Of a stretch of DNA of 64,000 bases, positions 27,421 through 53,025 are shown one piece after another. Each line of letters begins with the position of its first letter. Position 1 is the first letter of the stretch. The stretch covers positions 1-64,000 of the forward strand of contig JAJYDE010000012.1 of assembly GCA_021777755.1 (NCBI GenBank), read 5' to 3'. Under the pieces are notes generated by a model. The model was given only the letters and a program-made list of their open reading frames with translations. It had not been told where the DNA came from and searched no databases. The DNA is from Deltaproteobacteria bacterium (GTDB lineage: Bacteria > Desulfobacterota > Syntrophobacteria > Syntrophobacterales > Syntrophobacteraceae). The position numbers and the translations under genes are program-made.

Positions 27421-27513
27421 CGCAAGGTATCCCCGAAATGCATCGTCAATCGCGACCCTCGATTCCGGTCTCGGGCAAACACCCTCAGATCGGCGGTCTG
27501 TCACTTTTTCCGA

Positions 27514-27625
27514 AAGGTTCAAACGGGTACACGAATTGTGCCAAAGCAGGAATCCCCTCGACGCCGGATCGTTTGCGGGCCGTGTTTTGGCGATATGCTT
27601 GGCACGGTTATTGCCCGCTTCTGTT
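27514..27625 (+). promoter_or_regulatory. sigma-54 promoter with upstream activator-site module
   Basis: TGGCAC at 27600-27605 and TTGC at 27611-27614, 5 nt apart, is a perfect -24/-12 sigma-54 promoter. It points at the acyl-CoA ligase start 79 nt downstream of the -12. The 85 bp before it (AAAGGTTCAA, ACACGAATTGTGCCAA, GACGCCGGATCG, then a GGGCC-GTGTT block) recur upstream of the second sigma-54 promoter at 40.2 kb and probably hold activator-binding sites. Confidence 0.8.
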
Positions 27626-27692: not shown

Positions 27693-29330
27693 ATGAGCAC
27701 AATACCAGAAAACTACCTACCTCGGACCGATGCTTGGCCTCATTACCTGACTCCGGAGGAATTTGCCGAGACCCCTGAAAAATTGAATATCGCCGACTTT
27801 CTGCTCGATCGGCATGTGAGGGAGGGGCGGGGGGGCAATGTCGCCATAAGGTTCATGGACAAGGAAATCACCTACGCCCAGTTGCAAAAACTGGTCAATC
27901 AGTTCGGCAACTCGCTGAAAGAGGCCGGAGTCCAGCCCCAGGACAGGGTCGGAATTCGCCTGGTCAACGCCCCCGCATCTGTTGTGACCATATTTGCGAT
28001 CGAGAAGATCGGGGCCGTTCCGGTCCCGACATCGCCCTTGTGGTCCCGTGAAGAGATAGCCTTTGTGGTCAACAATGCCGAAATGAAGTACTTTGTGGTA
28101 AACGCGCCGTTGATGGAGCCGGTCCAAGCTGCAAAGCCGAACTTTTGTTTCGACACCAAAGTGGTGGTAATCGGTGGAGATCCCGGTGAAGTCAAGGCGG
28201 CCGGCAATATGGCCTACGAAGAAATGATCGCCAAGGGTTCCGCGGACTTGGAAGCAACGCTGCTAAACAGCTTCGATATCGGTGTAATCCTCTATACCTC
28301 CGGCACCACCGGAATGCCCAAAGGCTGCGTTCATTTCGTTCGTCCAACGATTATCGAGACGCGGATTGTCAATAAATACGTCTACCAGCTAAAGCCCGGA
28401 GACATCCTGGGGGGATCGGCGCCGGTGTCCTTTGCCGCCGGTTTCGGCACCTTCGCTCTCATTCCCTTCGAAGGAGGGGCGGGCATTTCTCTTATCCCGA
28501 AGTTTTCCCCGGCCGATATGATGGAGCTCGTGGCCAAACACAAGATAACGGTCATGACGGGGCTCCCCACGGCTTACCGCGCCCTCATGAAATTCCCCGA
28601 TTTCAACAAGTATGATCTCAGCTCGGTGCGCCTCTTCACCTCGGGAGGCGACGCTCTTGGCTCGGAAACTCTTCGGGGGTGGCTCGAGCGTACCGGAAAG
28701 CCCATCTGGGAGGGGCTCGGGGGAACGGAAATGCTTCATCTGGTAACCTCCAACACATTAAACCATGCACCGGTGCCCGATTCCATCGGAAGACCCCTGC
28801 CGGGTATGTCAGTTAAAGTCGTGGACGCATCGGGCAAGGACTGCAAGTGCGGCGATGTGGGCAGCATGATCGTAAAAGGCCCCTCCGGAACCCTTTACTG
28901 GAAACCTTACGAGAATGACGAAAAACTGCTCAAATCGCAAAAATCGGGTGTCGTTGACGGCTGGAACAAGATGGGCGATGCCGTGTTCATGAATGAAGAC
29001 GGCAACATCTTTTTCGTCGCTCGCGAAGATGACATGATAAAGAGTTCGGGCTACCGAATAGCGCCTTCCGAAATCGAGGAAGCGCTCCTGGGGAATCCGT
29101 CGGTAGCCGACGCGGCCATTGTCGGCGTCCCGGACCCCGAAAAGGGGCAGCTGGTCAAGGCGGTCATCGAGCTGAAACCGGGCCTTACGGGCTCCGAGCA
29201 GATGAGTGAGGCAATACTCGCCTCCCTTAGAGACCAAATAGCCGTCTACAAGTTGCCTCGCATAATCCAATACATGGATAAGCTGCCAAGGACCCCGACC
29301 GGAAAACTCCTGCGACGCCTGCTAAGGTGA
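27693..29330 (+). CDS. AMP-dependent acyl-CoA ligase (benzoate/2-aminobenzoate-CoA-ligase-like)
   Basis: Cytoplasmic ligase of 545 aa that would activate a carboxylic acid to its CoA thioester with ATP to AMP. The adenylation motif is YTSGTTGMPKG, followed by EGLGGTEML (A5) and the hinge/catalytic region DDMIKSSGYRIAPSEIEE with the C-terminal Lys in RTPTGKLLRR. Overall layout resembles benzoate-CoA and 2-aminobenzoate-CoA ligases, but the acid cannot be fixed from sequence. The ATG at 27693 follows CAAGGAG. It is expressed from the sigma-54 promoter just upstream and may feed the CoA-transferase pathway encoded nearby. Confidence 0.85.
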   Translation: MSTIPENYLPRTDAWPHYLTPEEFAETPEKLNIADFLLDRHVREGRGGNVAIRFMDKEITYAQLQKLVNQFGNSLKEAGVQPQDRVGIRLVNAPASVVTIFAIEKIGAVPVPTSPLWSREEIAFVVNNAEMKYFVVNAPLMEPVQAAKPNFCFDTKVVVIGGDPGEVKAAGNMAYEEMIAKGSADLEATLLNSFDIGVILYTSGTTGMPKGCVHFVRPTIIETRIVNKYVYQLKPGDILGGSAPVSFAAGFGTFALIPFEGGAGISLIPKFSPADMMELVAKHKITVMTGLPTAYRALMKFPDFNKYDLSSVRLFTSGGDALGSETLRGWLERTGKPIWEGLGGTEMLHLVTSNTLNHAPVPDSIGRPLPGMSVKVVDASGKDCKCGDVGSMIVKGPSGTLYWKPYENDEKLLKSQKSGVVDGWNKMGDAVFMNEDGNIFFVAREDDMIKSSGYRIAPSEIEEALLGNPSVADAAIVGVPDPEKGQLVKAVIELKPGLTGSEQMSEAILASLRDQIAVYKLPRIIQYMDKLPRTPTGKLLRRLLR

Positions 29331-29447: not shown

Positions 29448-29885
29448 TCATTTCTCGCGGGATTTTTTCGCCTCCCGTCCGCCCTCTTTTATCTTCGCCT
29501 TTTTTTGCATTCCCGGGCCGCTCGCGATGAGCCTGACCATGGTCTCGAATTCCCACTCCTTGTAGGGCTCGATTATGCAGCCATAGGCGCCCAGCTCCAT
29601 GACGGACTCGATCAGACCGCGATTAGTCCGGCGGCTCAAAAGGATCAGTTTGCTGTCGGGGCGCGACATCTTGATCCTGGATACGACCATTTCCCCGAAT
29701 GCAATCACGCCTTCGCAGTCGATCAAAATGATGGAGTTGGGCTCTCGGCTCCGGGAGGATAAAAGTGAATCGAGGCTGACGATCTCGAAGCTGAAATGTT
29801 CATTCTTTCCAAGCATCTTCAAGATGATGGCGCGAACTTCGTCATTTAGCACCAGAACGGAAAATCGAATCTCTTGAGTGATCAT
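29448..29885 (-). CDS. receiver-like single-domain protein, 145 aa
   Basis: The fold pattern is that of a response-regulator receiver: SVLVLNDEVRAIILKM, then IILIDCEGV in the phospho-acceptor position, LILLSRRTN and ELGAYGCIIEPYKEWEFETM. The N-terminal acidic pair is only partly kept (N-D-E), while an Asp sits at the acceptor strand, so phosphorylation is uncertain. A basic tail (KKAKIKEGGREAKKSREK) ends it. The ATG at 29885 was chosen over a longer upstream frame. It lies at the end of the minus-strand CoA-transferase gene block. Confidence 0.62.
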   Translation of the reverse strand: MITQEIRFSVLVLNDEVRAIILKMLGKNEHFSFEIVSLDSLLSSRSREPNSIILIDCEGVIAFGEMVVSRIKMSRPDSKLILLSRRTNRGLIESVMELGAYGCIIEPYKEWEFETMVRLIASGPGMQKKAKIKEGGREAKKSREK

Positions 29886-30218
29886 CCATGGACCCCGCTT
29901 TTCATCGTCTGGAGGCCAATTCCGCTGATCCCATGGAGATTCAAGATTTATGCCCACTCACCAACAGGCAATCACACGACTCGGAGCCCCAAGCGCGGAC
30001 TTTTTCAACATTTCGGCGCGAAGTGATTTGTCCGTGCCCGTTTCGATGGGCGGAAAACTTCGGGCGTGTGCGGAATGCGTCCCGCCCGGAAGGGAAGTCG
30101 CATGCGAAGTCTTCGCCGATAAAGATTTCGGAGAGTGTCTGCAACTCGACCCCGGTGCGCTTTTCCAAACATTGCCCGCCCGCCCTCTTCTCGGAAAAGA
30201 GGGGCGGCTTGACTCCTT
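29886..30218. other. intergenic region, about 330 bp
   Basis: No gene or clear regulatory motif recognised between the receiver-like gene and the small 83-aa gene, both on the minus strand. Confidence 0.35.
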
Positions 30219-30470
30219 TCATCTCTTTGGTTCGTCCTTGCGCACCGGCTTGTGCATCGGCAATCCGTATACGCTGTCAATGTAATATGCGCAATTCCCC
30301 GGACCCAATTCTTCCACTTCTTTTCGAAACCTCCGGCAAATCTCCAGCCCCTTTTCCCGCGCGCCTTCGGGGAAGCCCCCCTCATCGGAGGCATAGCGCG
30401 CCTCGATTTGGTCGAGCTTTTTCATGTACTCTTCATAGCTGATTTCTTCGATCGCCAACCTGGCCTCCAC
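30219..30470 (-). CDS. small uncharacterised protein, up to 83 aa
   Basis: Charged, mostly helical, with two Cys (EICRRF, GNCAYY). Not recognised. The annotated GTG start lacks a good ribosome binding site; a TTG four codons later has GGAGG 5 nt upstream and may be the true start. Last gene of the CoA-transferase operon. Confidence 0.55.
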   Translation of the reverse strand: MEARLAIEEISYEEYMKKLDQIEARYASDEGGFPEGAREKGLEICRRFRKEVEELGPGNCAYYIDSVYGLPMHKPVRKDEPKR

Positions 30471-30489
30471 CGGTTACCCGAAGTCCCCC

Positions 30490-30690
30490 TTACGAAGGAC
30501 TTTTCATCTCGGCCTCAAGGTCGTCCAGGGCCTTTTTGGCCTCCGCTATCAAATCACGAAACTCATCGGACTGATAAGCGTCCAAACCGCCACAGCCCAT
30601 GTCCGCCGACCTGTCGAACACATACTCCCGATCCACATACATTATCAGGGCCCTGGCCGCCCCGTGGAATTTCAAAAATCCGTCCTTCAT
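30490..30690 (-). CDS. small uncharacterised protein, 66 aa
   Basis: Not recognised. Begins KDGFLKFHGAARALIMYVDR and ends in a charged helix (LIAEAKKALDDLEAEM). Its ATG overlaps the stop of the upstream MBL-fold gene by 4 bp, strong evidence for translation as part of that operon. Confidence 0.6.
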   Translation of the reverse strand: MKDGFLKFHGAARALIMYVDREYVFDRSADMGCGGLDAYQSDEFRDLIAEAKKALDDLEAEMKSPS

Positions 30691-31889
30691 TTTCCCGGCT
30701 TTCCAAATCTGGCTTCAAGCTCCGATTTGAAGGCCTCAATATGCATGGCCTCCTCGCGGCGCCCCGAAAAATAGAGCGCCATCCCCTTGAACACCTGCGC
30801 TTCGCGCATATCGGGTTCCATCTCAAGGGCCTTGTCCAAACAGGGCAGGCTCTCGGCATACCTGCCAAGGCCCAGCAATGCCCGCCCTTTTCCGGTAAGA
30901 CCGTAGATATCGTGATTTTGTTGCTCAAGAGCCAACTCGAAGGCCTCGAGTGCCTCTTCACAACGGCCCATATCGTTTAGCGTAAAGCCCTTCAACTGCA
31001 ACGCCTGAAAATTTTCGGGTCTCACAGCCAGCTCCACGCCGCAGCAATAGAGGCTCTCTGCGAGAAACCCCTTTCCCGCCAGCCTCCTCGCCCCCTCCAT
31101 CCATGTCATCTTGTCCTCGGGACCTATGCCCAGGACCTTCATCATAACGCTTTCATAGGTTTGCTCCACGGTGCGCCTGCCCGTAAAAGCCACCGGCACG
31201 CCGTGGCCCGGCAACAGATGCACGATATTTTTTTGCAGCACCTGCCTCAGTGCGAACAAATAGTGTTCCAGCGAGCCCCCGGCAGTCTTGTCGACCTCGG
31301 CCACCGCGTCGGGCAGTATCGCATCCCCCGATATCACGGTCCCCGTCTCTTCGTGGTACAGGCCAATGCCGTCCATCGTGTGACCCGGCGTATGAATTAC
31401 TTCCCACGGGAAACCGCTCAGCTCCAGGGTTTCTCCTCCCCTCAGCTCCGTTGGTGTAAAGCCCGATTGGACCGCAAGCCTTTTGAATTCCTCAGGCCCC
31501 GCCGCATGCATAATGATTTCCAACCGTTTGCTTTCCCTCGGGCCGGCATATCTTAATAGCTCGAATACCCCCATGCAGTGGTCGCGGTGTCCGTGGGTCA
31601 AAACGACCTTCCCTATATCCGAGACCGCATACCCCAGTTTCTCGATGTCTGAGAAAACCGTGTAATCATTGCCCGGGTCCACCAGGGTCAAGTAATCGCC
31701 GCCGAGCAGATAGACGTTGCTCGAATGATGATACCCGATCAAAAACCTGCTGTTTGCAAAGACGGCGTGAGGTTCTTTTAAAATCTCGCCGATTGAAAGC
31801 CAACCGGGATGCGGCGGTTCTTCCTCGCCGGCTAAAAAACCGTTTTCACCACTCGATTTTCTCGGGTCGATTTCCTGCGCATTCATCAT
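30687..31889 (-). CDS. MBL-fold metallohydrolase with C-terminal TPR repeats
   Basis: Protein of 400 aa. The metallo-beta-lactamase fold shows LVDPGND, the metal motif LTHGHRDH, then IHTPGHTMDG, ISGDAIL and LLPGHG, so both metal sites are complete. Residues 285-395 carry three TPR-like helical pairs (for example KGFTLNDMGRCEEALEAFEL). The family includes thioesterases and lactonases; in a CoA-thioester operon a thioesterase-like or scaffold role is possible but not proven. The ATG at 31889 follows GGGACGGGAA. Confidence 0.78.
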   Translation of the reverse strand: MMNAQEIDPRKSSGENGFLAGEEEPPHPGWLSIGEILKEPHAVFANSRFLIGYHHSSNVYLLGGDYLTLVDPGNDYTVFSDIEKLGYAVSDIGKVVLTHGHRDHCMGVFELLRYAGPRESKRLEIIMHAAGPEEFKRLAVQSGFTPTELRGGETLELSGFPWEVIHTPGHTMDGIGLYHEETGTVISGDAILPDAVAEVDKTAGGSLEHYLFALRQVLQKNIVHLLPGHGVPVAFTGRRTVEQTYESVMMKVLGIGPEDKMTWMEGARRLAGKGFLAESLYCCGVELAVRPENFQALQLKGFTLNDMGRCEEALEAFELALEQQNHDIYGLTGKGRALLGLGRYAESLPCLDKALEMEPDMREAQVFKGMALYFSGRREEAMHIEAFKSELEARFGKPGK

Positions 31890-32021
31890 TTCCCGTCCCC
31901 AAAGAAGCACGGTCGCCAAGGCAAGAGCGCCGCTCTAAAAAAACATCCGCGCAAATAGACACCCGGATGGATTCACTCCTTCTTTGCGGGAAAATGAATC
32001 CATCCCGAAAGCCGGTGCATG

Positions 32022-32516
32022 CTAACCGATGTAGTCAAGCGCGTAATGGAGCTTCAGTTTGTCATCGGGCCACCATTTCTTGCTAATTCTCACTTCACCG
32101 GGATACACCTCCTTGCCGTCGATTTTGTCGATCATCAACTCGATGAAATGGAACTCGGTAAGCTTGTGCCGTTTGACGACCTCCGAGGGGATCAGCACCG
32201 CCAGGCCGCTTTCCTTCGCACACTCCCATTCGAACGGTTCGCTGCGACTTCCCTGCTCCGCAGCCGCTTCGGACTCGCGAAACACCACGTCGGACTGAAA
32301 TTCGAACGGTTCGCCCGGAGGCACCTGTTCTTCCCCGGTCTTGCCGGAGAAAACCTTGAGAAGGCGCCCTTGAATCTTCGATTTTGGCCCCATTTTGAAT
32401 TCTTCATACAGCTCGTCGGACACATGCCACCAACATGCCCTGGCATTGGCGGCCACATATGCTTTTACGAGCATGGGGTCGAAGCCGCACACCACTACAC
32501 GGCATTTTTCAGGCAT
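32022..32516 (-). CDS. uncharacterised protein of CoA-transferase operon, 164 aa
   Basis: Not recognised. Soluble, with Cys at C5, C10, C28 and one more in the centre; the C-terminus contains EVRISKKWWPDDKLKLHYAL. AAGGAGG precedes the ATG, and only 2 nt separate it from the preceding small gene, so it is a firm operon member. Confidence 0.65.
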   Translation of the reverse strand: MPEKCRVVVCGFDPMLVKAYVAANARACWWHVSDELYEEFKMGPKSKIQGRLLKVFSGKTGEEQVPPGEPFEFQSDVVFRESEAAAEQGSRSEPFEWECAKESGLAVLIPSEVVKRHKLTEFHFIELMIDKIDGKEVYPGEVRISKKWWPDDKLKLHYALDYIG

Positions 32517-32518
32517 AA

Positions 32519-32809
32519 TTAGGCCTCCTTTTCGCCCTCATCGGTTTGCGGATCGCTCAGCCGGATACGGAGATCCTCGACCTGTTCCAGGCAATAATTC
32601 ATAAACTCCTCGGCCTCTTCGGCGCTCAGGTACTTGGTTTCAAACAATCTTTTCACATAGGGATAGACGTGGGTCTGGATCTCCTCGCTAAATTCCATGA
32701 GCACATCTTCGTTATCTCCATCGGGGGAGCCCCAACTGAGAAAACCGGTTTTCCAGTTGTTCAACATCCCCCTTAGAACATCGAGTTCTTCGCTGACGTT
32801 TTCTTCCAT
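32519..32809 (-). CDS. uncharacterised acidic protein of CoA-transferase operon, 96 aa
   Basis: Not recognised. Highly acidic helical protein (EENVSEELDVLRGMLNNW, ETKYLSAEEAEEFMNY). Its ATG follows the previous stop by 1 nt. A small acidic helical partner of a complex is plausible; no domain was recognised. Confidence 0.62.
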   Translation of the reverse strand: MEENVSEELDVLRGMLNNWKTGFLSWGSPDGDNEDVLMEFSEEIQTHVYPYVKRLFETKYLSAEEAEEFMNYCLEQVEDLRIRLSDPQTDEGEKEA

Positions 32810-32810
32810 G

Positions 32811-33047
32811 CTAGGCGTTCTTCTTTCCGTCGTAGGCATAGCACTTTCTTACGACGTTGAAGTCCGCCACGCACCAGTAATGAGGCCAGTGGATCTTCTT
32901 GCACCACCCTATGATGTCGGCAGGCGGAAACTTGGAACCTTTGAGAACAGGCTTCAAGTGTTTACACTGCCAGCATATGTGGTCGCTTTGTTTTTCAGGG
33001 ACAAGCACCGTATCCAGGAATTCTTGAGGCGTCAACTCTTGTGACAT
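32811..33047 (-). CDS. small Cys-rich protein resembling fumarate-adding-enzyme small subunits, 78 aa
   Basis: Five cysteines: HICWQCKHLKP, then GWCKK, HYWCVADF and RKCYAYD. The pattern of C-x2-C followed by Trp-flanked single Cys residues recalls the small HiPIP-like iron-sulfur subunits of benzylsuccinate synthase (BssB/BssC), but this is pattern resemblance only and no glycyl-radical subunit is in the window. CAAAGGAG lies 6 nt before the ATG. Tight operon spacing on both sides. Confidence 0.65.
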   Translation of the reverse strand: MSQELTPQEFLDTVLVPEKQSDHICWQCKHLKPVLKGSKFPPADIIGWCKKIHWPHYWCVADFNVVRKCYAYDGKKNA

Positions 33048-33066
33048 GCAACACTCCTTTGTCGGT

Positions 33067-33552
33067 CTACCAGTCCTTGACCTCGTCCGCGGCAAGTTTT
33101 TTCTGATATTCCTCCCAGAGCTCGGGGGACAATTTCTGAATATCCCAGTTGAACCCGTGGCTGCCCGCCAGACCTGCCGAGGGCGGCTGAGGGCGCCACC
33201 CGCGAACCGGACGGCCCCGGATGCTGAATTTGACCTTGTCGGCCACCCCCAACAGGTGTTTTCTGGGCGTACACTGAAAGGGCCTGGTGCGGCCTTCCAC
33301 TCCCGGCCGGTAGTTGGAATAGCCATCATAAGGCTTGTCGGCATAAAGGGGCGAGGTGTCCGACTTTTCTCCGGGTCTTTCTTCGGGGCCCCGATACATG
33401 AAGCCCTGGATCATGTGAATGTAGTAGACCGTTCCGCACTCGGCGCAGTTGATCTTTCCTTCCCAATTCCAAAAACAGTAGGGATCGAGGTAGTTGATGG
33501 TGTCACACTTCTTTCCGTCCACTTCCTTCTTGCACCAGATGATATCGCACAC
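33067..33552 (-). CDS. Cys-rich zinc-ribbon-like protein of CoA-transferase operon, 161 aa
   Basis: The N-terminal half has Cys at 2, 7, 16 and 26 and a CAEC pair near 36-39 (NYLDPYCFWNWEGKINCAEC), suggesting a zinc ribbon; a further Cys is in FQCTPRKH. The C-terminus is Pro/Trp-rich. Not assigned to a family. The GTG start at 33552 has GAGAGGAGG 5 nt upstream and lies 12 nt after the CoA-transferase stop. It might be a structural partner like the small zinc protein BbsA of benzylsuccinate oxidation, but no direct similarity can be claimed. Confidence 0.65.
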   Translation of the reverse strand: MCDIIWCKKEVDGKKCDTINYLDPYCFWNWEGKINCAECGTVYYIHMIQGFMYRGPEERPGEKSDTSPLYADKPYDGYSNYRPGVEGRTRPFQCTPRKHLLGVADKVKFSIRGRPVRGWRPQPPSAGLAGSHGFNWDIQKLSPELWEEYQKKLAADEVKDW

Positions 33553-33564
33553 GGCAGCCTCCTC

Positions 33565-34980
33565 TCATATGTAGGCCTTCTTGTACCACTCTTCGATCTT
33601 GGTTAGCGGCACGCCGAGCAAATCCCGGTAGATCTTCTTGTTGTCCGCTCCAAGGGGACGCCAGTGCCAGTTGATCCTTCTCGGGCTCTTTTCCATCAAA
33701 CCGGTACTGTAGCCTCCGTGAACCACCAGATCCCCGAACAGGGGGTCTTCCATCCACCGCACGGTGCCTCTTTCCCGGTAGTGAGGGCTTTCGTAGACCT
33801 CCCGGTCGTTTCGGACGGGCTCAGCCAAAAGGCCCGCATCGCCAAGGGTCTTGGCCACCTCGGAGCGGCTCTTGTCCGCAGCCCATCTTTCCAGAGCCGC
33901 GTAAATCTCCACCTGCGCCTCGCCTTCGACCCGGTCCTTGTGTGCCTTGTATTTTTCGTAGAGTTCATTTAGACCGGTAATTGCGCACAGTTCCTTGAAA
34001 TCCCGGTCCTGAAAGGCGCTCACCATAACGTATCTGGCATCGAACCTGTCCTGGGGGTTCTCCGCGTCGGGGAAATCGGACTTGCCGCACAAGATGATGC
34101 CGTGCACCGCAAGTTGAGTGTCCCAGTTGCCCCAGCGCTGGCGAACGATGCCGAACTTGCCGTACATCGTCGTGGTGTGCCCAAGCATTCTGGTGGGGAC
34201 CTGCACCTGGGAGAACTCTATCATAGTTCCAAGCCCGGTCTTTCTCCGGTGGTGGATGGCCGCCATTATGGCGCAGGAGATCAAGTTGCCCGATTGCCAG
34301 TCGATGACCCAGTTGGTGCACTTGGAGCAGTGGCCGCCCATGTACTCGTGCATCCCGGTTATGGAGGCAAGCCCCGCGTGGGCCTGGCCCAGGATGTCGT
34401 AGGAACCTCCGAATACCTTGGGCCCGTAGCCGAAGCCTCCCCCCCAGACGTAGATGAACCTCGGGTTGATCTCGCTAAGAAATCGATAGCTCATCTTCCA
34501 CTTGTCCAGGGTGCCCGGCCGGTAGAGTTCGGTGAGTCCGTCGGACTTTTTCACAAGACTGTAGAACACCTCCCGCATCTCGGGCACGTGATAGTCCATC
34601 GTGACGAAATACTTGTTGGGGTTGGCGTTGGTGTAGCCCAGGCCCGTGCCGGTCATCGGGCGCATGTCGCTGAACGGATAGAGATAGACTTCGTTGAAAG
34701 GGGAGGTGTGGCGCATCGGCTCGCCCATTCTGGGAATTTCGAGCTTGATCACCTCGGCTCCCAGTTCGGCCAGATTGGCCACCGAATGCGGTGTGAAGAT
34801 ATACATCGTGCAACTGAGCCAGCGTATCCCGTTTAGCGGCTTTGGCTTGGTGTGTTCATTTCCGGCATCGAAGAGTTTTTTGCAATACTGCTCGTAGGGC
34901 ATCTTGAACTCGTCCATCTCACCTTTGCTCTTTGGGCCGGGCAGGTCTTCCACATTGGTCACTCTGGGATCTTGCGCCAT
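33565..34980 (-). CDS. class III (CaiB/BaiF) CoA-transferase subunit, BbsE/BbsF-like
   Basis: Subunit of 471 aa. CaiB-type features: [15 protein letters not shown] near the N-terminus, [16 protein letters not shown], and the catalytic-Asp region [19 protein letters not shown] followed by [15 protein letters not shown]. With the overlapping upstream gene it would make a heteromeric enzyme moving CoA between acids, as BbsEF does with succinyl-CoA and benzylsuccinate. The ATG at 34980 overlaps the upstream TGA by one base and has GGGGGTGA 5-6 nt before it. Lacks a normal CaiB N-terminal start (usually a VLD-x-T stretch). Confidence 0.82.
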
Positions 34981-36464
34981 CACATCACCCCCTTTTCTTT
35001 CATGGCGTTAACTTGTGTCTGGCCCATTCCGATCCATTTCAAATAGATCTCGTAGTTGTCATAGCCTATGTCCCTGCCCATCCATTTGCACCGGAAAGGA
35101 GCCCTCAGCTGATAGGAGGCGGGGCTGGAGGCGATCAGGAGCGGTCCGTAATCGGTCTCATGGACGTAGACCCACGGTCGGTACTTGAAGTGAGGAAACT
35201 CGCAGACCTCGTCGATGTAGAGCACCGGACCCGCCGCCACCTGGTATTCGAGCAGCTTGGTTTCGGCCTCCACGCGGTTTGTGTCTCGCAGCCAGCGCGA
35301 GGTCAGGGTGTAGGTCTTTATCAGGGCGTGCAAAGCGTTTCTGGCCGCCATTTCCTTAAGGAGGGGATCTTCGTGGATCAGCCGACCGAACTGGGCGTCA
35401 TCGCACTCGAGGCAAAAGCCTATGTTGTACCAGAGCTTGTCGGTCTGGCCGCCGATCATCATGTAGCCGTCCTTGCACGGGTTCCAGGCATACTGGTTGA
35501 GGCAGGCATCCCAGCCCCCGGTGCGCGCTTTGATACTGGCATTGAATCCATACCAGGTGATGTCGAAGTCCAGAATGTCCATAAGCGCTTCGGCGCCCGT
35601 TTCCTCAATCATTTGCCCCGTTCCCCCCAACTCGTCTCTCCAGTAGAGGGCGGCAATGGAGTTGAGAAACGCCTGGGCCCCGGCCACATAGTCGGCAAGC
35701 CAGATCCCTGGGCGCGTGGGGTCGCCTCCTTTGCCTCGCGGCAACAGATCCTGGGCCAAACCGGTATTGTGGATCCAGGAATTTGCCGCGCTCGCAAAAG
35801 GTTCGAGCATCCATTGAGAGAACTTGGACTGTTTGTCCTTCCAGGGGCCCCACTGCCCGAGCATCCCGATCCAGACATAGACCATTCTGGGATTGAGTTC
35901 TTTAAGCTGCCGGTACCCTATCCCCAGATCGTCCATATAGCCGGGAGGCATTCCGTCGATCAGGACGTCCACGTTCATCGCCATTTTTTTAAAGATTTCC
36001 CGCCCCTGCTCACTCTCCACATCGAGGGTCACGCAGTGAGTATTTACCGTTTCATTGACGAATTCCATCCCGCACTTTTCCCCGCTTTCCTTGTTCTGAA
36101 GCAGGTACTCTTCACGGCCGAAGGGAGTGAGTTTTCTTAACGGGTCGCCTTGGGGGGGCTCGATGGAGACCACCTCCGCCCCGGCCTCCCCGTAAAGAGA
36201 GGCGCAAAACTTGTGGCCCAGCCTCCACAAACCGATGTCGAGCACCCTGTATCCCGTCAGGGCTTCATCCTTTTCATATCTTTTCTCGAATCTCAGGTTT
36301 TCCTCGGACCAATTGCAAAACTCCAGCGCCTTTCTTCTCTCGTATACCGGTTTGACTTGCTCGTAGGAAGGCGCAGGGGTGACCGGATAGGGCCGCACGT
36401 CAAGATCCATCAGCCCGATGGTATCGGCCCTGCTGTTTATTTCCACATCTCGGATTTCCGGCAT
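34980..36464 (-). CDS. class III (CaiB/BaiF) CoA-transferase subunit, BbsE/BbsF-like
   Basis: Subunit of 494 aa, first gene of the operon. Motifs: [33 protein letters not shown], split here as VLDIGLW and [16 protein letters not shown], then [17 protein letters not shown] and the catalytic-Asp motif [14 protein letters not shown]. The ATG at 36464 has GGGAG 8 nt upstream; about 100 codons of open frame before it were rejected. An N-terminal extension of about 65 residues before the CaiB core is unusual. The substrate is not deducible; acids activated elsewhere in the window are candidates. Confidence 0.85.
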
Positions 36465-37132
36465 CTTTGAGCTCCCTTGTCTTTTGATGGCCTCTACTCC
36501 CGATTCCACAGCTTTGGTCTCCTTCAGCGCCATTGCCCGCTTGTGCCAACCGGTCCTGGCTCGTGAAACGATCACGGTGAAGAAAAACCTTTGCCCGACA
36601 ATCGTCTTCCCGTTGAAAAGCCGGGACTCCTCCCGGGAAATCGCGGTCCTCTCATCACCTCCTGTCATTAGTCTTGAGAAACACCAAGCCCAAGCCGCAA
36701 TCGAGTCTGGAATCAAGTGGCGCCCCGCAGAATGCACTGCGCGGGGCTGTTGCAGCTTCCCGCTGTTTTTCAAAATTTATGCCCGCACAAAATCGGCACC
36801 CCGGATCGTTTGGAGTTTGCAACGCTAAAGATTCGTCCTCGGATGTCCCGGCTCAAAACAGGGACCCGGGGACACCCCCCGACCTTCGCCACCCCCCCGC
36901 AACATCGCCCGGCAACTCGGCGTTACGATCAATCTCGTCGAGGCGCCCGAGGCTCGGGCAATGCCCGGCCCCGCGGCCGCCGGAAAAATTTTCTTCGGTT
37001 CGATTTTTTTTCTCACCTCGGGGAAGGGGGGGCGCGGGAGGCAAAATGTTCAAAATCCGACCCCGCGGAGGGCAAATCAGCCGCGAAAGCCCCGAGACGA
37101 CGCCTTCGGGGGCGTGTATAAAAACCGCCCCC
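36465..37132. other. long leader of the CoA-transferase operon, about 670 bp
   Basis: No supported gene. It must contain the operon promoter. TGGCACAAGCGGGCA on the minus strand near 36533-36548 resembles a sigma-54 site, but its -24/-12 spacing is one base short. The part near 36830-37050 is highly GC-rich with poly-C and poly-T runs and no obvious signal. Confidence 0.4.
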
Positions 37133-39166
37133 CTAGCTCCGGGCCGGACTCCCGGCGGCGGACTCCTCCATGAGCCCGTAGCGCCTGATTTTACTGTAGA
37201 GGGTGCTGCGGCTGATCTTGAGGCGAAGTGCCGCGTCGTGCTTGTTCCAATTGGATTTTTGCAAGGTCTTCAGGATGAGGCCGCGTTCGTTTTCGGATAG
37301 CGAGGTGAGATTCCGGTTTTGGCAAAGCTCGCGAAGAAATCTCGGCAGGTGCTCTCTGCGGATCAACTCGCCCCGGGATAACACCACGGCGTGACTGACG
37401 GCGTTTTCGAGTTGCCTCACGTTTCCCGGCCAGTCGTAGTCGAGAAGCGCCCGCATCGCCTCCGATGAAAAATCGCGGATGTTCTTGTGTTCCTTGAGGT
37501 TGTGCTTGGCAAGGAAATGGTGGGCCAGCAAAGGGATGTCCTCGCAACGCTCCCGCAACCGGGGAAGATTGATCGATATCACGTTCAACCGGTAGAACAG
37601 ATCATCTCTGAACCTGCCCGAGCGCACTTCCTGGAGAAGGTCCCGGTTGGTGGCCGCAAGCACCCGGACATCGGCGGCAATGACCCTCTCGCCCCCGACC
37701 CTTTCAAAGCAATGATCCTGGAGAAAGCGCAGCAGCAAGATCTGGACCGCGGGAGCTATCTCTCCGATTTCGTCGAGGAAAAGCGTACCGCCGTTGGCCC
37801 GTTCGATCCGGCCTTTTTTTTGATGCGTCGCACCGGTAAATGCTCCCTTTTCATGTCCGAAGATCTCGCTTTCGAGCAGGGTCGGGGAATAAGCCGAGCA
37901 GTTGGCCACCACGAAAGGCCCCTTGTGGCGAGGACTCCTCTTGTGAATGGCGCAGGCCACGAGTTCCTTGCCCGTCCCGTTTTCCCCGCCGATCAGCACC
38001 GTGGCATCCGAACAGGCCACAAGGTCGATCAGTTCATAGATTTCCTGCATGCCCTTGCCGCGGCCGATAATGTCTCCATAGCCGGGGCGGTCCGCCACCT
38101 GCGATTTCAAAATCCCGACCTCGGCCTCGTATTTCACCAGATTTCTCAAGTGCCCCGAAGCCTGCTCGCACAGGGCGTTTACCAGCTTGAAGTCTTCGGA
38201 GGGAAACCGGTTGGCCGCCTTGGAGCCCAAAAAGAGCAGGCCGATACATTTTCTGTGAACGAAAAGAGGCAGCGCCGACCACAGGGGGGAAGTGCCCGCG
38301 AGGCTCTTCAGGGCGGAAAATTCCTCGCACCTCTGCGTCGGGCCAATCACATCCCCTGCCTTGCAACGGTTGATCTGGCCGACCAGTCGCGCTCCAAGTC
38401 CGCCGGAATCGAGCGTGCGTAGAATTCCCCCCGGCCCTTCCACCCCTTCGGACTCGAAATCTTCAAACCGCAGGAAATGTTCGCACGAGGCATCCAGAAG
38501 CAGAAAGGCAGGCTTCGAACCGGGGAGAATCTTGACAATATGGTCCAAAAGAAACCGCGCCAACTCGCACATCGTCGATTTTGTCCCGATCTCCCGGGAA
38601 AGCTCCAATAACTCCTTGAGCTGGCACCGGGAGCGGCAAAGCTCCTCCGAGCGCTTTGCCAGGGCATGCTCCAGCTTTTTTGTCTCCGTCACATCCCGTT
38701 CGATCCGGAGTACAAGATCGACCCCGCCTCTTTGGTCACTGATCGGATAAGTCTCTATCTGCTTGACTTTTCCGTTCTCCATGAGCACCGGATGCACGGT
38801 CTTGCACAGGTGAGGTTTCCCGGTTTCGCAGCTCCTGCGCACCGGGCAAAAGACCCCGGCTTCATGGCACGGAATCCCCCTTCCGAAAAGAACCTCGTGG
38901 CAGGTCTTGCCCGAGATCTCCCGGGCGTTTTTAAAGGCGCTCCCGGCCACGAACAAATCGTTTACCCGCACCACCCGATAGGTCGCCGGGTCCACCACCA
39001 TCAATTTGTCCCTGAAGCTGTTCATGATCTTCTCGGAGAAGTTCTTTGCCGAAATCAACTCGTTTTGGAGCTGCTCGACGGGGACGACATCGCCAAGATC
39101 CGCAATATCGCGCACCAAGCCAACTTCATACAGGGACTGGGACTCGAATGGCTTTTTCATGCACAT
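37133..39166 (-). CDS. sigma-54-dependent transcriptional activator (PAS-GAF-AAA-HTH)
   Basis: Enhancer-binding protein of 677 aa: a Cys-rich PAS domain (about 35-165), GAF-like domain (about 195-345), AAA+ ATPase with Walker A GENGTGKE, the sigma-54 loop GAFTGA, Walker B GGTLFLDEIGE, and a Fis-type helix-turn-helix at the C-terminus (DAALRLKISRSTLYSKIRR). The PAS domain contains seven Cys (CHEVLFGRGIPCHEAGVFC, CETGKPHLC), a pattern that could bind a metal, haem or Fe-S cluster and sense redox state. It lies just upstream of the CoA-transferase operon; two sigma-54 promoters in the window are likely targets. Confidence 0.9.
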   Translation of the reverse strand: MCMKKPFESQSLYEVGLVRDIADLGDVVPVEQLQNELISAKNFSEKIMNSFRDKLMVVDPATYRVVRVNDLFVAGSAFKNAREISGKTCHEVLFGRGIPCHEAGVFCPVRRSCETGKPHLCKTVHPVLMENGKVKQIETYPISDQRGGVDLVLRIERDVTETKKLEHALAKRSEELCRSRCQLKELLELSREIGTKSTMCELARFLLDHIVKILPGSKPAFLLLDASCEHFLRFEDFESEGVEGPGGILRTLDSGGLGARLVGQINRCKAGDVIGPTQRCEEFSALKSLAGTSPLWSALPLFVHRKCIGLLFLGSKAANRFPSEDFKLVNALCEQASGHLRNLVKYEAEVGILKSQVADRPGYGDIIGRGKGMQEIYELIDLVACSDATVLIGGENGTGKELVACAIHKRSPRHKGPFVVANCSAYSPTLLESEIFGHEKGAFTGATHQKKGRIERANGGTLFLDEIGEIAPAVQILLLRFLQDHCFERVGGERVIAADVRVLAATNRDLLQEVRSGRFRDDLFYRLNVISINLPRLRERCEDIPLLAHHFLAKHNLKEHKNIRDFSSEAMRALLDYDWPGNVRQLENAVSHAVVLSRGELIRREHLPRFLRELCQNRNLTSLSENERGLILKTLQKSNWNKHDAALRLKISRSTLYSKIRRYGLMEESAAGSPARS

Positions 39167-39555
39167 GCGACTTTCCCCATCGGTTGATGATAAAGTCTGC
39201 GGAACCCGGTCCCGAGGCAGAAAAATCGCCCCGGCATGTCAAGGAGCATCGGGGGAAGCAAACGAGTCGTCGAGGGAAGGCGAAAACGGGGCCGGAACAG
39301 CTGAAACCATGCAGGATAAAAGTAAAGCGTGCCTCTGGATGGAAAGTCTGCCAGACGACAAAGATCAAAAATCGGGGGCATCGGCTGTCATCGGCAGTGA
39401 GCGCCTGCAAGAGAAGTCTGACTCATCCAGCTGTCCGAGTCGCATCCCTTCCCGCAAAAAGCCGGCTTCGCAATAGCCTCTCCGGAAACTGATTCTTCCT
39501 GCTCCTTTTGATAAGCAGATACGAAAGAAAAAGTCAAGGGGAAAATGGGCGCGCG
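39167..39555. other. intergenic region, about 390 bp
   Basis: No gene recognised between the sigma-54 activator and the GNAT gene, both on the minus strand. A plus frame ending at 39476 (ESLPDDKDQKSGASAV) is open but has no ribosome binding site or motif. Confidence 0.35.
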
Positions 39556-40143
39556 CTATAACCTCAAGGTCATGATCACCGCTTCGGGGTCCCCGGAGTC
39601 CGAGAAACTGAAACCGAGAGCCTTGGCCAGGCTCAGCATCGCAGTGTTGTCAAACAGGGAATGAGCGTACATTTCCCTCATCCCCTGTTTGCGCGCGTGG
39701 CCGATTACATGCTCCAGCAAGGCCCGCCCGATCCCCATTCGGGTCAGATCGGCTCGAACCAATATGGCGAACTCCCCCCGCACTCGGTCCGGATCGGGTA
39801 TGATTTGCACATATCCGAGGATTTCCAGATCATTTCCGGCCTCCCTGCCTACGAGCACAAAACTCATTGCCCACTGGTCGTCCAGAAGGGAAAACTCTCT
39901 TACCTGCGTCTCGGGCACCTTGGACATCGCATGCAAAAACCGCATGCGAATTTCATTGCCGGAAAGCTCGGCAAATAGCTTGCGGAGCGCATCGATGTCC
40001 GAGGATCGTGTCGGGCGGAGCCGAAAAATCCGGCCGTCGGCGAGCGTCATTGCGCTCTCCAATTCCCCGGGATGAGAGGAAACCACCGAAACTCCGTGCC
40101 CGGCCAACCTCGTCCTGGATAATCTGGTGTCTGCTGCGGCCAT
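39556..40143 (-). CDS. GNAT-family N-acetyltransferase
   Basis: Protein of 195 aa. The GNAT core is clear: motif A FAILVRADLTRMGIGRALL (acetyl-CoA binding R/Q-x-x-G-x-G/A) and motif B ending in AMLSLAKALGFSFS. It is a close paralogue of the C-terminal domain of the adjacent Pat-like protein (both have IRxRFLHxMxxxPxxQ and FILVRxDxxxxGxGR patterns), so it probably acetylates protein lysines. AAGGA is 4 nt before the ATG. Its promoter is a sigma-54 module shared with the acyl-CoA ligase gene. Confidence 0.85.
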   Translation of the reverse strand: MAAADTRLSRTRLAGHGVSVVSSHPGELESAMTLADGRIFRLRPTRSSDIDALRKLFAELSGNEIRMRFLHAMSKVPETQVREFSLLDDQWAMSFVLVGREAGNDLEILGYVQIIPDPDRVRGEFAILVRADLTRMGIGRALLEHVIGHARKQGMREMYAHSLFDNTAMLSLAKALGFSFSDSGDPEAVIMTLRL

Positions 40144-40198: not shown

Positions 40199-40293
40199 AG
40201 CGGGCAATAACCGTGCCAAGGTTCTCGCCGAACATGGCCCTGCGATCCGGCGCCGATCTTGGCACAATTCGTGTTACCTTGAACCTTTGGAAA
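40199..40293 (-). promoter_or_regulatory. second copy of sigma-54 promoter and activator module
   Basis: On the minus strand, TGGCAC (40218-40213), 5 nt, then TTGC (40207-40204) is a perfect -24/-12 element, 61 nt before the GNAT start. The upstream 70 bp repeat the blocks found at 27.5 kb (AAAGGTTCAA, ACACGAATTGTGCCAA, CGCCGGATCG, GGCGA), with a few small insertions/deletions. Confidence 0.8.
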
Positions 40294-40352: not shown

Positions 40353-42866
40353 ATGAGCCTCAGGAACCTCGACTTCATGCTCAACCCCTCCTCGGTGGCC
40401 TTGATTGGCGCCAGCTCAAGGCCCCACTCGGTGGGCGAGGTCATTTTGCAAAACATTCTCAATGCAGGGTTCAAAGGCGACCTGTTTCTGGTCAATCCGA
40501 GGTATCAGTTGATGGGAGGCCTGCCGGCATATCCGAGCGTGGCCAGCCTGCCCAGGTCTCCGGACCTGGCCGTGATAGCAGTCCCGCCCGAATCCGTGCC
40601 CGAAGTGACGGCTCAATTGGGGGCCTGCGGAGCGAAGGGGGCCGTGGTCATTACGGCGTGTTTGGGAGAAGGAGGCTCCAAACGCGGCCGAGAGCTTCGC
40701 CAGGCCATGCTCGAAGCCGGGCGGCGCTACTCCTTGAGGATAATCGGTCCAAATTCTTTGGGCATCATTGTGCCCAAGTCCAGCCTGAACGCCAGTATGG
40801 CCCATATTGCACCTTCCGCGGGCGGCATAGCCTTCGTTTCGCATTCGGGGGCGCTGCAGACCGCGGTCCTTGACTGGGCGGCCTCGCAGAATATCGGATT
40901 TTCCCACGTTGTTTCCCTGGGCGGTCTGGCCGAGGTGGATTTTGGCGATATGCTCGATTACCTGTCCGCGGATCTTTCCTGCCGAGCCATCCTGCTCTAC
41001 CTGGAAGGCATTACCAATGCCCGCAAGTTCATGTCCGCGGCAAGGGCCGCCGCTCGGATGAAACCGGTCATTGTTCTAAAGGGGGGGCGCTGCGCCGAGG
41101 CTGCGCGGGCGGCCGAAAAGCACACCGGGACGGCTCCGGGAATCGATCCGGTCTATGATGCGGCGTTTCGCCGGGCGGGAATGCTGCGGGTGCGAGACAT
41201 TCAGGCCTTGTTCAGCGCCGTTGAGACCCTGGCAAGGATGCCAAGATCGCTAAAAGGGGAAAAAGTCGCCATCCTCACCAATAGCGGCGGAATCGGCGTG
41301 TTGGCAACCGATGTGCTTATCGACGAAGGCGGTCGTCTCGCCCCGCTGCGCCCCGAGACGATGAGCAGACTAAATGCCGAGCTGCCCCCCATGTGGTCTC
41401 ACTCGAACCCGGTGGACATAGGCAGCGACGCGCCTCCCGGCCGCTATGCGAGCGCGCTGCAAAGCCTTCTTGGCGATGATTCCCTGGACGGCATTCTCAT
41501 ATTGAATGCCCCCTATGCGGTAGCCTGCGGCAAAGAGGTGGCCCGGGCGGTCGTAAATACGATAAAACCCCGCCAAGACCACCACCCGGTAGTCCTGACC
41601 TGTTGGCTGGGCGGGGCCGGCGCGCGCGAATCGCGCAGGCTGTTCGTGCAAAACAATGTGCCCACCTACGAAACTCCCGCCGAAGCCATACGAGCTTTTA
41701 TGCAGATGATTCGATACCAGAGAAACCAGGCCATGTTGATGGAAACGCCCCCGAGCATCCCCGAGTCTTTCCTGCCCGATGCGCCAAAAGCGAGGGAAAT
41801 CGTGGAGCTTGCCCTGACCCGGGGGCAAGGATGGCTGACGAGCGCGGAAACCCGCGCGCTTCTAGACGCCTACACGGTCGGCTCGCTTCCCCAGCCCGTG
41901 CCGGCCCCGGATTTGCGCCCCGGTGAGCGCTCCGACTCAAAGACCCCGCTCCCGCGTTCCGCCCCCGGCCAATTCTTTGTCGAAGCTCTTGACGATGAAT
42001 ATTTCGGACCCGTCCTCCGGCTGGATTTTTCAATCATGCGGGAGGACCCTCTGCACAAGGGGGAGTTTGCGCTCCTGCCACTGAACCTTCGCCTGGCAAA
42101 GGAACTCATCTCCCGCGCCCGCGGCGCTATAAACCATGAAGGCGGACCAAAGGAAAACTGTTTGGACATGGAAGGCGCCGCGCTCACTTTGGTCAAAGTG
42201 GCGCAAATCCTTTGCGACATGGACGACATTTCGGGGCTGGGCGTTCATTTTTTCCCTGGAAACGACGGCCCTGTGGCGGTGAGCGCTCAGATCCGGGTGG
42301 GCAGGAGCAGGGCCTGCGCCGGTCAGCGTACGGCCATTCGCCCCTACCCGAAAGAGCTGGAGGAGCGCCTGTCGCTGCGCGATGGAACGATGGTGCGAAT
42401 ACGCCCCATAAGGCCCGAAGACGAGCCCAGCCTTCTTGCTCTTTTTTCGAGCCTTTCTCCGAAAGAAATCCGCCTGCGGTTTCTCCATCCCATGCGAGAG
42501 CTTTCGCCCGGCCAGGCGGCCAGATTGACGCAAATCGACTATGACAGGGAGATGGCCCTTGTGGTTACCGGGAACGCCGGAGCGGCAAAGCGCGAGTTCC
42601 ACGGCCATGTGCAGCTCCTCTCGGACCCCGACAATGAAAGGGCCGAATTTTCGATCCTGGTGCGTCAGGACTCAAGCGGAAAGGGGCTGGGGCGCATTCT
42701 CATGGAACGTATCATAGAATATGCGCGCAGCCGCGGCATGAAGGAAATCTTTGGAGACGTCTTCTTTGAAAACAAACCGATGCTCGGGCTTGCCAAATCC
42801 CTTGGTTTCGTATCGAGCATCGACTTCGACAACCCGGGCTCTCTCATCGTATCCCTTAAACTATGA
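40353..42866 (+). CDS. Pat-type protein acetyltransferase: ADP-forming acyl-CoA-synthetase-like with GNAT domain
   Basis: Protein of 837 aa. Order: CoA-binding domain ([17 protein letters not shown]; about 1-130), succinyl-CoA-ligase-like part (about 140-470; [23 protein letters not shown]), a shortened ATP-grasp region (about 496-665), and a GNAT domain (about 676-837; [25 protein letters not shown]). Enterobacterial Pat/YfiQ proteins have this order. Compared with them, roughly 60-70 residues holding the ATP-grasp Lys are absent, so ATP use is doubtful. Likely role: lysine acetylation controlling acyl-CoA synthetases. The ATG at 40353 is chosen because the upstream 64 codons lie inside the regulatory module. 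Confidence 0.85.
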
Positions 42867-50841: not shown

Positions 50842-51474
50842 TCATTTGCCGTGCACAAGCAAAATTCGCCTCACCACCACAATATTGGGATGCACCGCAA
50901 GATAGCTCAAGGCCAGAAGCGGGGCTGCCGGGAAAAATAGGCTCGCCCATGCGCAAAGCACGATGACGCTAGTTCTCGTCCCCTTGCTCGCAAGGGTCGG
51001 TTTGCCCATCGAGAGCCCCAGGCTTTCCGCCCGGGCCGTCGTGTAGCTGATGAGACTGCTCCCGCACAACGCAAAAAAACCCGCCGCCAGCAAAAGCGGC
51101 ACGGAAAAGTGGACGGGAAGTCTTAACAGGTAGATCACCATTCCGGTTATCAGGGACACATCCACGTAGCGGTCAAGAACCGAATCGAGAAAAGCCCCCC
51201 CTTTGGTCTCAAGGCCTGCAAGCCTCGAAAACTGGCCGTCAACGCCGTCTAGCAGCTGGGACATGGCGGCAAGAATTCCGGCCGCCCCTCCACAACCAAG
51301 GGCGAACAAAACGCCCCCCGAAACGCCGACAGCCGTTGAACACACCGTGATCATCCAGGGCCGGAGCCATTTGAGCTCGATGAGCCCGGGCGTAATTCGG
51401 GCGCACAGATTAAGCTTTATCCACTTCAAAACAAACCTGTCGGTCGGCTTCGTCTTCCACTGGTCTGACTTCAT
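50842..51474 (-). CDS. CDP-alcohol phosphatidyltransferase family membrane protein
   Basis: About 210 aa, five to six helices. The family motif D-G-x2-A-R-x8-G-x3-D-x3-D appears as LDGVDGQFSRLAGLETKGG followed by AFLDSVLDRYVD, with Phe-Ser for Ala-Arg flanks but both pairs of Asp intact. It would transfer a phospho-alcohol headgroup onto a lipid or soluble acceptor. It overlaps the TIM-barrel gene by 65 bp if the ATG at 51474 is used (TTG at 51501 is an alternative). Confidence 0.82.
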   Translation of the reverse strand: MKSDQWKTKPTDRFVLKWIKLNLCARITPGLIELKWLRPWMITVCSTAVGVSGGVLFALGCGGAAGILAAMSQLLDGVDGQFSRLAGLETKGGAFLDSVLDRYVDVSLITGMVIYLLRLPVHFSVPLLLAAGFFALCGSSLISYTTARAESLGLSMGKPTLASKGTRTSVIVLCAWASLFFPAAPLLALSYLAVHPNIVVVRRILLVHGK

Positions 51475-52252
51475 CACGGCTTTCCAAATATTTGCGAACA
51501 ACTCTTAGAGTTTTCATAAGCGGAGCTTCCTCGCGAAGCTCCAAAACCCACCAGTTGCACGAAAGTGCCCCCAGAAGGTCCAGGCGGCTACTGAGGTTTT
51601 CCACGCATTCGGGCGCCACGTGGCGATCGTCGATCTCCTCATGGTAGATGTGGGCGTTAAAAACCCGCCCTGGATTGGGCATGACGAAATCTTCCAGGTC
51701 AAACGACCGGCACCGCACCGCCTGGCACACCCTCGCATGACCGATATCAAGAGTAATACCGGCTCCGGATTTACTCACCAGCTTCTCAAACAGGTGGGGC
51801 CTGCTCGACCAGCCGGAGGCGAGGTTTTCCAGGCAAAGCGTAATGCCCAGCCCTTTTGCATAAGCGACCAACTCCGCCAAAGACCTTACCGTGCGCTCCC
51901 AGGAAAGGCCCTCGGGCGACTTTCTCCCCAACCCCAGGTGCACGGTAATATAAGAGCCATCGAGCCTGGAGACCACCCGGCAGACCCTTTCAAACAGCTC
52001 CATCGCCTCCTCGGCCTTGCGGTCATCCTCATCGCCCCCATCCACCCCTTTGAACGCGCAATGATAACGGATCTCCAGGCCGTTCAAAATCGAAATTTTC
52101 TCTAAAAGCCTCGATTCTTCCGCCCGGCTTCGCGGCAGCTCTTCGACCTTGAAGGTCCAATCGACCCCGGAAAATCCGTTTCGAACCGCCACGTCCCTAA
52201 GCTCTGCCGCATCCGGGATGAAATTGCAAATGGCAATGGTGGGCGAAATCAT
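51410..52252 (-). CDS. xylose-isomerase-like TIM-barrel protein
   Basis: Protein of 280 aa. Pattern of the sugar-phosphate isomerase/epimerase superfamily: VDWTFKVEELP, ITVHLGLGRKSP, LCLENLASGWSS with the metal Glu, ITLDIGHARV with Asp/His ligands, and NAHIYHEEIDDRH with His ligands. So the divalent-metal site seems complete. It may epimerise or isomerise a polyol or sugar phosphate. ATG overlaps the activase stop by 4 bp, in the middle of the five-gene operon. Confidence 0.8.
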   Translation of the reverse strand: MISPTIAICNFIPDAAELRDVAVRNGFSGVDWTFKVEELPRSRAEESRLLEKISILNGLEIRYHCAFKGVDGGDEDDRKAEEAMELFERVCRVVSRLDGSYITVHLGLGRKSPEGLSWERTVRSLAELVAYAKGLGITLCLENLASGWSSRPHLFEKLVSKSGAGITLDIGHARVCQAVRCRSFDLEDFVMPNPGRVFNAHIYHEEIDDRHVAPECVENLSSRLDLLGALSCNWWVLELREEAPLMKTLRVVRKYLESRDEVRPVEDEADRQVCFEVDKA

Positions 52253-53025
52253 TGAATACTTCCGTTTCTGCCGTAAAGCGCCGCGCCGATGGCCCCCACC
52301 ATGTCCGGGTTTTCAGGAACACTCACGGGCTGACCCAGTTGCTCTTCGAGAAGCCGTACGGCGCACGGGTTGTGGGCCACTCCGCCGGCAAACACCAGCG
52401 GAGGCGAGGCGCCAACCCGCCTTAGCATGGCGATCGTTCGCGAAATGATCGCCGCGTGCAGCCCCATGGCGATGTTTTCCGCACGCTCGCCCCTGGCCAT
52501 AAGAGAGGTGGCCTCGCTTTCGGCGAAAACCGCGCACATGCTGCTGATCTGCACCCGGCGCTCCGAGCGCAACGCAAACTCGCCAAAGGTCTCGATCGGA
52601 ACCTGGAGCGCCACGGCCATGAATTCCAAAAACTTCCCCGTCCCGGCCGCGCACCGGTCGTTCATCTCGAACTTGACCACCTTGCCGCTCCCCGACAAGG
52701 AGATCACTTTCGTATCCTGACCCCCTATGTCCAGAACCGTTCCGGCTTCCGGATGCAGGAACTTCACCCCGAGCGCGTAGGCCTGGATTTCGGTTATCGC
52801 CGAAACATTCAAACCGGGAAAGGATTCGGCGAACAGTTTGCGCCCATATCCGGTCGCCACCACCCGCACCCCCTCCAGTCCCTCGACGAGTTTTCGGCAC
52901 TGGCCCAGGGGATCGAAAGTGGTGGGCAGCTTTTCCCGGCGCACCACACCCCCCGAGTTCAATACAACCAGCTCTATCGAGCGCGAACCGATATCAATGC
53001 CCGCGACCATGTCCTTGTCGAACAT
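52249..53025 (-). CDS. ATP-dependent activase of 2-hydroxyacyl-CoA dehydratase/BadF-BcrA type
   Basis: Protein of 258 aa in the ASKHA fold: phosphate-1 VAGIDIGSRSIELV, TGYGR, LDIGGQDTKVISL, the Fe-S ligand pair in NDRCAAGTGKFLE and SMCAVFAESE, and VFAGGVAHNP. It forms a homodimer with a [4Fe-4S] cluster between subunits and drives one low-potential electron into its double-cubane partner at the cost of ATP. Its partner is encoded 13 nt upstream; GAGGGAG lies 9 nt before the ATG. Confidence 0.92.
   Translation of the reverse strand: MFDKDMVAGIDIGSRSIELVVLNSGGVVRREKLPTTFDPLGQCRKLVEGLEGVRVVATGYGRKLFAESFPGLNVSAITEIQAYALGVKFLHPEAGTVLDIGGQDTKVISLSGSGKVVKFEMNDRCAAGTGKFLEFMAVALQVPIETFGEFALRSERRVQISSMCAVFAESEATSLMARGERAENIAMGLHAAIISRTIAMLRRVGASPPLVFAGGVAHNPCAVRLLEEQLGQPVSVPENPDMVGAIGAALYGRNGSIQ

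Follow-up and report, generated by a model that had tools for sequence, protein, structure and literature searches.

Can a single sigma-54 activator switch on a CoA ligase and, together with it, an acetyltransferase able to restrain that ligase? The question is raised by a window of 64 kb (the whole stretch of DNA that was analysed), which is the first part of a 103-kb contig in a draft genome assembly of 4.2 Mb (103 contigs, 95.8% complete). Two modules of ~100 bp face inward in this window and bracket one gene cluster. Module A (27507..27619, + strand) lies 5' of an AMP-forming CoA-ligase gene, and module B (40199..40293, - strand) lies 5' of the gene of a one-domain GNAT acetyltransferase.

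A and B are two copies of one promoter module. The first-pass annotation had noticed that they share blocks, including a 22-nt identical stretch with the -24/-12 boxes, and had proposed a precise alignment. The local alignment bears the likeness out from end to end, with a score of 102, and places the module ends at 27507-27619 (+) and 40293-40199 (-), not at 27514-27625 for A. Chance similarity is ruled out by this score, given a maximum of 34 in 1000 dinucleotide-preserving shuffles; the highest score among 2516 other pieces of the window was 31. Four exact blocks follow each other in the same order in both copies: 10 nt (27513-27522 in A, 40288-40279 in B), 16 nt (ACACGAATTGTGCCAA; 27529-27544, 40274-40259), 10 nt (27562-27571, 40252-40243) and 22 nt (CTTGGCACGGTTATTGCCCGCT, which contains TTGGCACGGTTATTGC; 27598-27619, 40220-40199). 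The distance from the 16-nt block to the -24 box is 14-15 bp shorter in B than in A. The likeness begins where the candidate upstream activator site (UAS) region starts and ends 5 nt past the -12 box, and the flanks have nothing in common beyond these limits. The copied unit is thus the promoter and nothing else. The search for further copies, also proposed earlier, found the module in two places only (the second at E 2.6e-12), and a 20-nt core with up to three mismatches matched A and B alone (reversed control, 0). Neither search revealed a third copy in the genome, which rules out a repeat family. When 39 relatives were searched for the module at the DNA level, no match appeared; orthologous promoters in relatives were reached only by way of the ligase protein.

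Both copies carry the hallmarks of enhancer-dependent promoters. The -24/-12 element TTGGCACGGTTATTGC (27599..27614, +, in A; 40204..40219, -, in B) has no mismatch to TGGCACGNNNNTTGC, and A and B both conform to TGGCAY-G-N4-TTGC with its fixed spacing, 5' of a gene. The -24 box lies 93 bp before the ligase start codon (27693) in A and 75 bp before the GNAT start codon (40143) in B. The genome encodes RpoN (PF04552, 217.8 bits, over the cut-off), and TGGCAYGNNNNTTGC occurs 18 times in it versus twice for the reversed control, which indicates that -24/-12 sites are in use. Nothing turned up in a sigma-70 scan of the surroundings of module B, and the GNAT gene, as judged by eye, has AAGGA, similar to a ribosome-binding site, at the usual distance before its start. 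Judging from these elements, the ligase and GNAT genes are both very probably under RpoN control.

The binding site of the activator is harder to place. The 16-nt block ACACGAATTGTGCCAA, identical at 27529..27544 (+) and 40259..40274 (-), is a weak candidate for it. From the start of its TGCCA to the TGG of the -24 box, the distance is 61 bp in A and 46 bp in B. The exact block has just these two copies in the genome, and with two or three mismatches allowed there were 18 further matches (20 in all) versus 22 in the reversed control. Across genomes, TGCCA stands 54-56 bp before TTGGCA in four ligase promoters, those of this genome (G000) and of three relatives (G001, G004 and G005); this spacing is 54 bp in module A versus 54-56 bp in the relatives, and 40 bp in B. 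The pattern TGCCA-N38-62-TTGGCAYGNNNNTTGC has five matches in 26 genomes, namely the four ligase promoters and module B, and none in reversed controls. The pattern was built from these promoters and matches them by construction, so its informative part is the absence of any other match in the 26 genomes. Of the 18 sites in this genome, one that is unrelated also has TGCCA, 65 bp upstream. Among the four ligase promoters, conservation of the 16-nt block does not extend beyond TGCCA, and inspection by eye found no palindromic pattern common to the four genomes. The spacing difference of 14-15 bp between A and B amounts to no whole number of helical turns. UAS sites in Clostridiales are described as lying mostly 100-250 bp upstream (PMC6615313); at ~46-61 bp from the -24 box, the candidate lies much closer, which makes its assignment weak.

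An activator gene of the expected type is located between the modules, as the first-pass annotation had indicated. The protein encoded at 37133..39166 (-) has PAS and GAF domains, an AAA+ domain (Sigma54_activat, PF00158, 223 bits) with the GAFTGA motif and a C-terminal Fis-type HTH (PF02954, 43 bits). A search with the ligase at E 1e-120 found 26 related genes in 23 of 26 family genomes, and up to 500 bp upstream of each was scanned (two stretches were limited to 292 and 326 bp). Four of the 26 genes, one each in this genome, G001, G004 and G005, have a site with no more than one mismatch, in every case at a distance of 87-93 bp from the start codon; the remaining 22 have none. In all four genomes with the site, an activator orthologue lies in the same contig and cluster as the ligase, that of G001 being a fragment at the contig end. 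Neither site nor linked activator was found for 21 of the remaining 22 ligase genes. The ligase of G016 has no site and stands outside the cluster, 13 kb away from the activator; in G009 the activator lies at a contig end in an assembly with no ligase match. The association of site and linkage has a Fisher p of 3e-4 with G016 counted as linked and of 0.002 within the genus, both values made optimistic by kinship. In the ligase tree, the four site-bearing genes do not form one group (three changes, as low in 67 of 500 shuffles), which argues that the promoter goes with the neighbourhood and not with the ligase lineage. The HTH of the activator is 76-89% identical in G001, G004 and G005. Inheritance, as read from these genomes, thus links the activator to module A. 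Co-regulation of ligase and GNAT is well supported at the sequence level, and the 37133-39166 protein is the presumed cognate activator of A and B. In the gap between the GNAT and activator genes (39167-39555, -), TTGACT-18-TATCAA can be discerned by eye; the activator may have a sigma-70 promoter of its own.

Of the two copies, module A is probably the older, since it has the spacing found in relatives and B has another. The likeness of A to B exceeds its likeness to the ligase promoters in G001, G004 and G005, none of which is found by a DNA search with module A as the query; either the copying is younger than the split from these genomes, or similarity between the copies has been maintained. 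B has the appearance of a promoter captured from A, and we infer that copying ran from the ligase to the GNAT gene. The gene order beyond the activator differs: in G004, G005 and G009 a GYD-domain gene is found there along with one for a peptidase U32, and this genome has the GNAT gene and a Pat gene between activator and U32. Sites with two mismatches to the strict consensus lie 127 bp before the GYD gene in G004 and G009 (L083:7375 and L084:16367, both -); no comparable site was found before the GYD gene divergent from the activator in G005.

The product of the gene behind module B (39556..40143, -) is a 195-residue protein with a single Pfam domain, Acetyltransf_1, homologous to the acetyltransferase domain of Pat. 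Its best PDB relatives are the Pat chains 9isq and 9it0 (E 2e-19). The conserved glutamate and the acetyl-CoA loop are retained, E124 being aligned to E123 of 4nxy, which we take to be the catalytic residue of SlPatA. Pfam found no NDP-forming acyl-CoA synthetase domain at its N-terminus; with the GNAT domain alone in 195 residues, the protein is not a two-domain Pat. Back to back with it, and missed by the first-pass annotation, lies the divergent gene of a full Pat homologue (40353..42866, +), with NDP-forming acyl-CoA synthetase domains and a C-terminal GNAT (PDB 9it0, 'Protein acetyltransferase', E 2.5e-153), whose GNAT part is 39% identical to the one-domain protein. The earlier description of one module before a CoA ligase and the other before a Pat-like GNAT acetyltransferase is therefore upheld by the Pfam domains and by the homology to Pat. 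The one-domain GNAT has a very long branch (1.93) in the tree. Apart from the GNAT itself, all its relatives in the 26 family genomes (E 1e-20, 20 rows) and in 395 genomes of the phylum (E 1e-32, 7 rows) belong to long Pat frames (one, in G001, is cut short by a contig end). No other one-domain relative appeared in either set, and no genome examined has a counterpart of module B with its GNAT. An arm seen in one examined genome only has no conservation behind it, and nothing shows selection on it. Sigma-54 control is not a general feature of Pat genes and was ruled out as such: none of 17 in relatives has a site with 0-1 mismatches within 400 bp upstream, and two have a site with two mismatches.

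The presumptive target is encoded behind module A. The ligase (27693..29330, +; Pfam AMP-binding) resembles benzoate- and anthranilate-CoA ligases: its best PDB relative is the anthranilate-CoA ligase 4wv3, with benzoate-CoA ligases also near, and it scores below all NCBIfam cut-offs shown (283 bits versus a cut-off of 375 for the benzoate-CoA ligase family TIGR02262). Its C-terminus, LPRTPTGKLLRRLLR, includes LPRTPTGK, a PX4GK-type motif that is presumably the acetylation acceptor motif, and the acceptor-type lysine, K538 in this ligase, is kept in 25 of 25 rows. If the rest of the reading holds, the GNAT quite probably acetylates this ligase, as its family membership and the C-terminal motif of the ligase suggest. 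A second CoA ligase of this genome (G000:C53, L091:550-2184, -) is 77% identical and has no close sigma-54 site; it groups with the ligases of G007 and G008, and a recent duplication of ligase plus promoter was thereby ruled out.

On balance, we favour a scheme in which one sigma-54 activator turns on the CoA ligase together with, in this genome alone, an acetyltransferase able to restrain it. The PAS/GAF part of the activator would read a signal, and we infer that the protein then binds upstream and opens RpoN-RNA polymerase at both A and B. Module A would drive the ligase, an arm common to the three related genomes; module B would have been captured in this lineage by placing a copy of A before a one-domain, Pat-type GNAT. 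Ligase and GNAT would be induced together, and the latter, by its family, would be able to inactivate AMP-forming CoA ligases by acetylation. Induction of acid activation would then bring its own brake, which would limit activation when acetyl-CoA is plentiful. A bolder version, which we regard as rather doubtful, is that promoter capture wired a freed Pat domain into the sigma-54 regulon of the ligase that it restrains, with read-through from B possibly feeding the activator gene, which lies on the same strand as the GNAT gene and 389 bp from it; the loop would be both self-amplifying and self-limiting.

The main rival to this scheme, itself unlikely, accepts A and B as working sigma-54 promoters under the neighbouring activator and assigns the GNAT a different target: the small-molecule signal of the activator, or another protein. 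There is precedent in BadL, a GNAT of the Rhodopseudomonas palustris benzoate cluster that acetylates aminobenzoates acting on a regulator (PMC6191541), and the GNAT is itself strongly diverged from Pat domains; its nearest relatives are nevertheless protein acetyltransferases, and a full Pat adjoins it. It is less probable that both promoters are served by another activator. A first look at the genome found 56 sigma-54 activator candidates, and the binding site is no more than a candidate, but the ligase promoter and the 37133-39166 activator share a cluster in four genomes, and 21 of the 22 other ligase genes lack the one and the other alike.

Slightly less probable again is a silent or decaying module B, kept by recency only, with A as the sole working promoter. 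The shortened stretch from UAS to -24 box in B and the absence of a counterpart elsewhere would fit such decay; the 16-nt and 22-nt blocks, however, are intact while the flanks share nothing, and AAGGA precedes the GNAT gene. Almost no weight can be given to a chance resemblance or a repeat element devoid of promoter role: in addition to a score far above the shuffles and a copy number of two, perfect -24/-12 elements stand at the right distance from two genes, and three genomes have orthologous sites.

Under the favoured scheme, the locus can be compared with several known systems. The Clostridiales survey reports that 93 of 263 sigma-54 activators have regulons of two to six operons (PMC6615313). 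As here, each of the local regulons that it describes comprises an activator gene and, next to it, catabolic genes with a single -24/-12 promoter or a few of them; in contrast to them, the present locus has one promoter copied from the other, a candidate UAS at an unusually short distance and an acetyltransferase among the targets. Many CoA ligases of R. palustris, including BadA, are inhibited through acetylation by Pat and by the one-domain GNAT KatA (PMC6640162, PMC4053389). Both systems combine a one-domain GNAT with a full Pat in the same genome, and they share AMP-forming CoA ligases and a conserved C-terminal lysine. CoA ligases, BadA among them, are the targets in R. palustris, whereas the ligase here is a candidate target, proposed from sequence. 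The relevant passages of the two reports describe no sigma-54 promoter shared by GNAT and ligase. The acsA/acuABC genes of Bacillus subtilis likewise place an acetyltransferase gene beside that of its CoA-ligase target (PMC11255334). There the genes are adjacent and run in opposite directions, and acu is glucose-repressed; here they are 10 kb apart and tied by a copied sigma-54 promoter. BadL resembles our GNAT in being encoded in an acid-activation cluster and bearing on its regulation; it differs in that, according to the account given of it, aminobenzoates and the repressor BadM are involved and no sigma-54 activator is (PMC6191541).

A review of aryl-CoA ligases states that the influences on acetyltransferase and deacetylase expression are unclear, since the genes are often not near those of their targets (PMC8388817). 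The promoter that ties acetyltransferase to CoA ligase makes this question testable here. The same regulator may switch on both an acid-activation pathway and its brake, and if so, the locus would clearly exemplify how a regulon can grow when a complete enhancer-dependent promoter is copied. Among open-licence PMC full texts, we found none that joins sigma-54 with both a CoA ligase and an acetyltransferase. The parts are ordinary and the wiring is unusual.

The cluster between the modules runs in the order ligase, receiver-like protein, metallo-beta-lactamase, three small proteins, CaiB2, CaiB1, activator and GNAT, with the ligase on the + strand and the others on the - strand. Directly behind the activator are CaiB1 and CaiB2, two conserved family III CoA-transferase genes assigned by Pfam (33565..36473, -). 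CaiB1 follows the activator on the same strand in 21 of 24 named activator loci (of the other three, two are cut short by contig ends and one is rearranged), so the two CoA-transferase genes are the most widespread association of this activator. No clear -24/-12 site was found in 23 stretches upstream of CaiB1, the best having two mismatches at -455 (G004) and -594 (L094). Neither CaiB1/2 nor the other cluster genes of this genome have a site with up to two mismatches, and sigma-54 control of the CaiB genes was therefore ruled out. More distant relatives keep activator and CaiB cluster together, with no comparable promoter nearby. Upstream of the activator in 23 loci, a looser consensus with at most one mismatch gave six sites, one of which (L098) adjoins the activator and precedes a NifX-like gene (named by eye). 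The first-pass reading is thus partly supported, its self-contained regulon being narrower than claimed: activator and ligase promoter are linked in four genomes, but the other cluster genes have no site with up to two mismatches in this genome, and the GNAT arm is found in only one of the genomes examined.

The rest of the conserved cluster (29448..33552, -) encodes the three small proteins (33067-33552, 32519-32839 and 32022-32516, without a Pfam family over the cut-off), a metallo-beta-lactamase/TPR protein and the receiver-like protein. The first of the small proteins (33067-33552, -; 161 aa, no Pfam match) has several invariant cysteines and is 70-91% identical in 17 sequences; its AlphaFold model is poor (mean pLDDT 60). 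The 164-residue protein (32022-32516, -), also without a Pfam match, has a fair model (mean pLDDT 73), for which no fold match reached E 0.001. The arrangement of activator, CaiB1, CaiB2, small proteins, metallo-beta-lactamase/TPR and receiver genes (29448-36473; L093-L116 in the comparison) recurs in many drafts of Deltaproteobacteria and Desulfobacterales, including Desulfobacca and Eth-SRB2. Elsewhere in the window, at 51410-54433 (-), genes for a 2-hydroxyacyl-CoA dehydratase-like D component and a BadF/BcrA-type ATPase adjoin a TIM-barrel gene.
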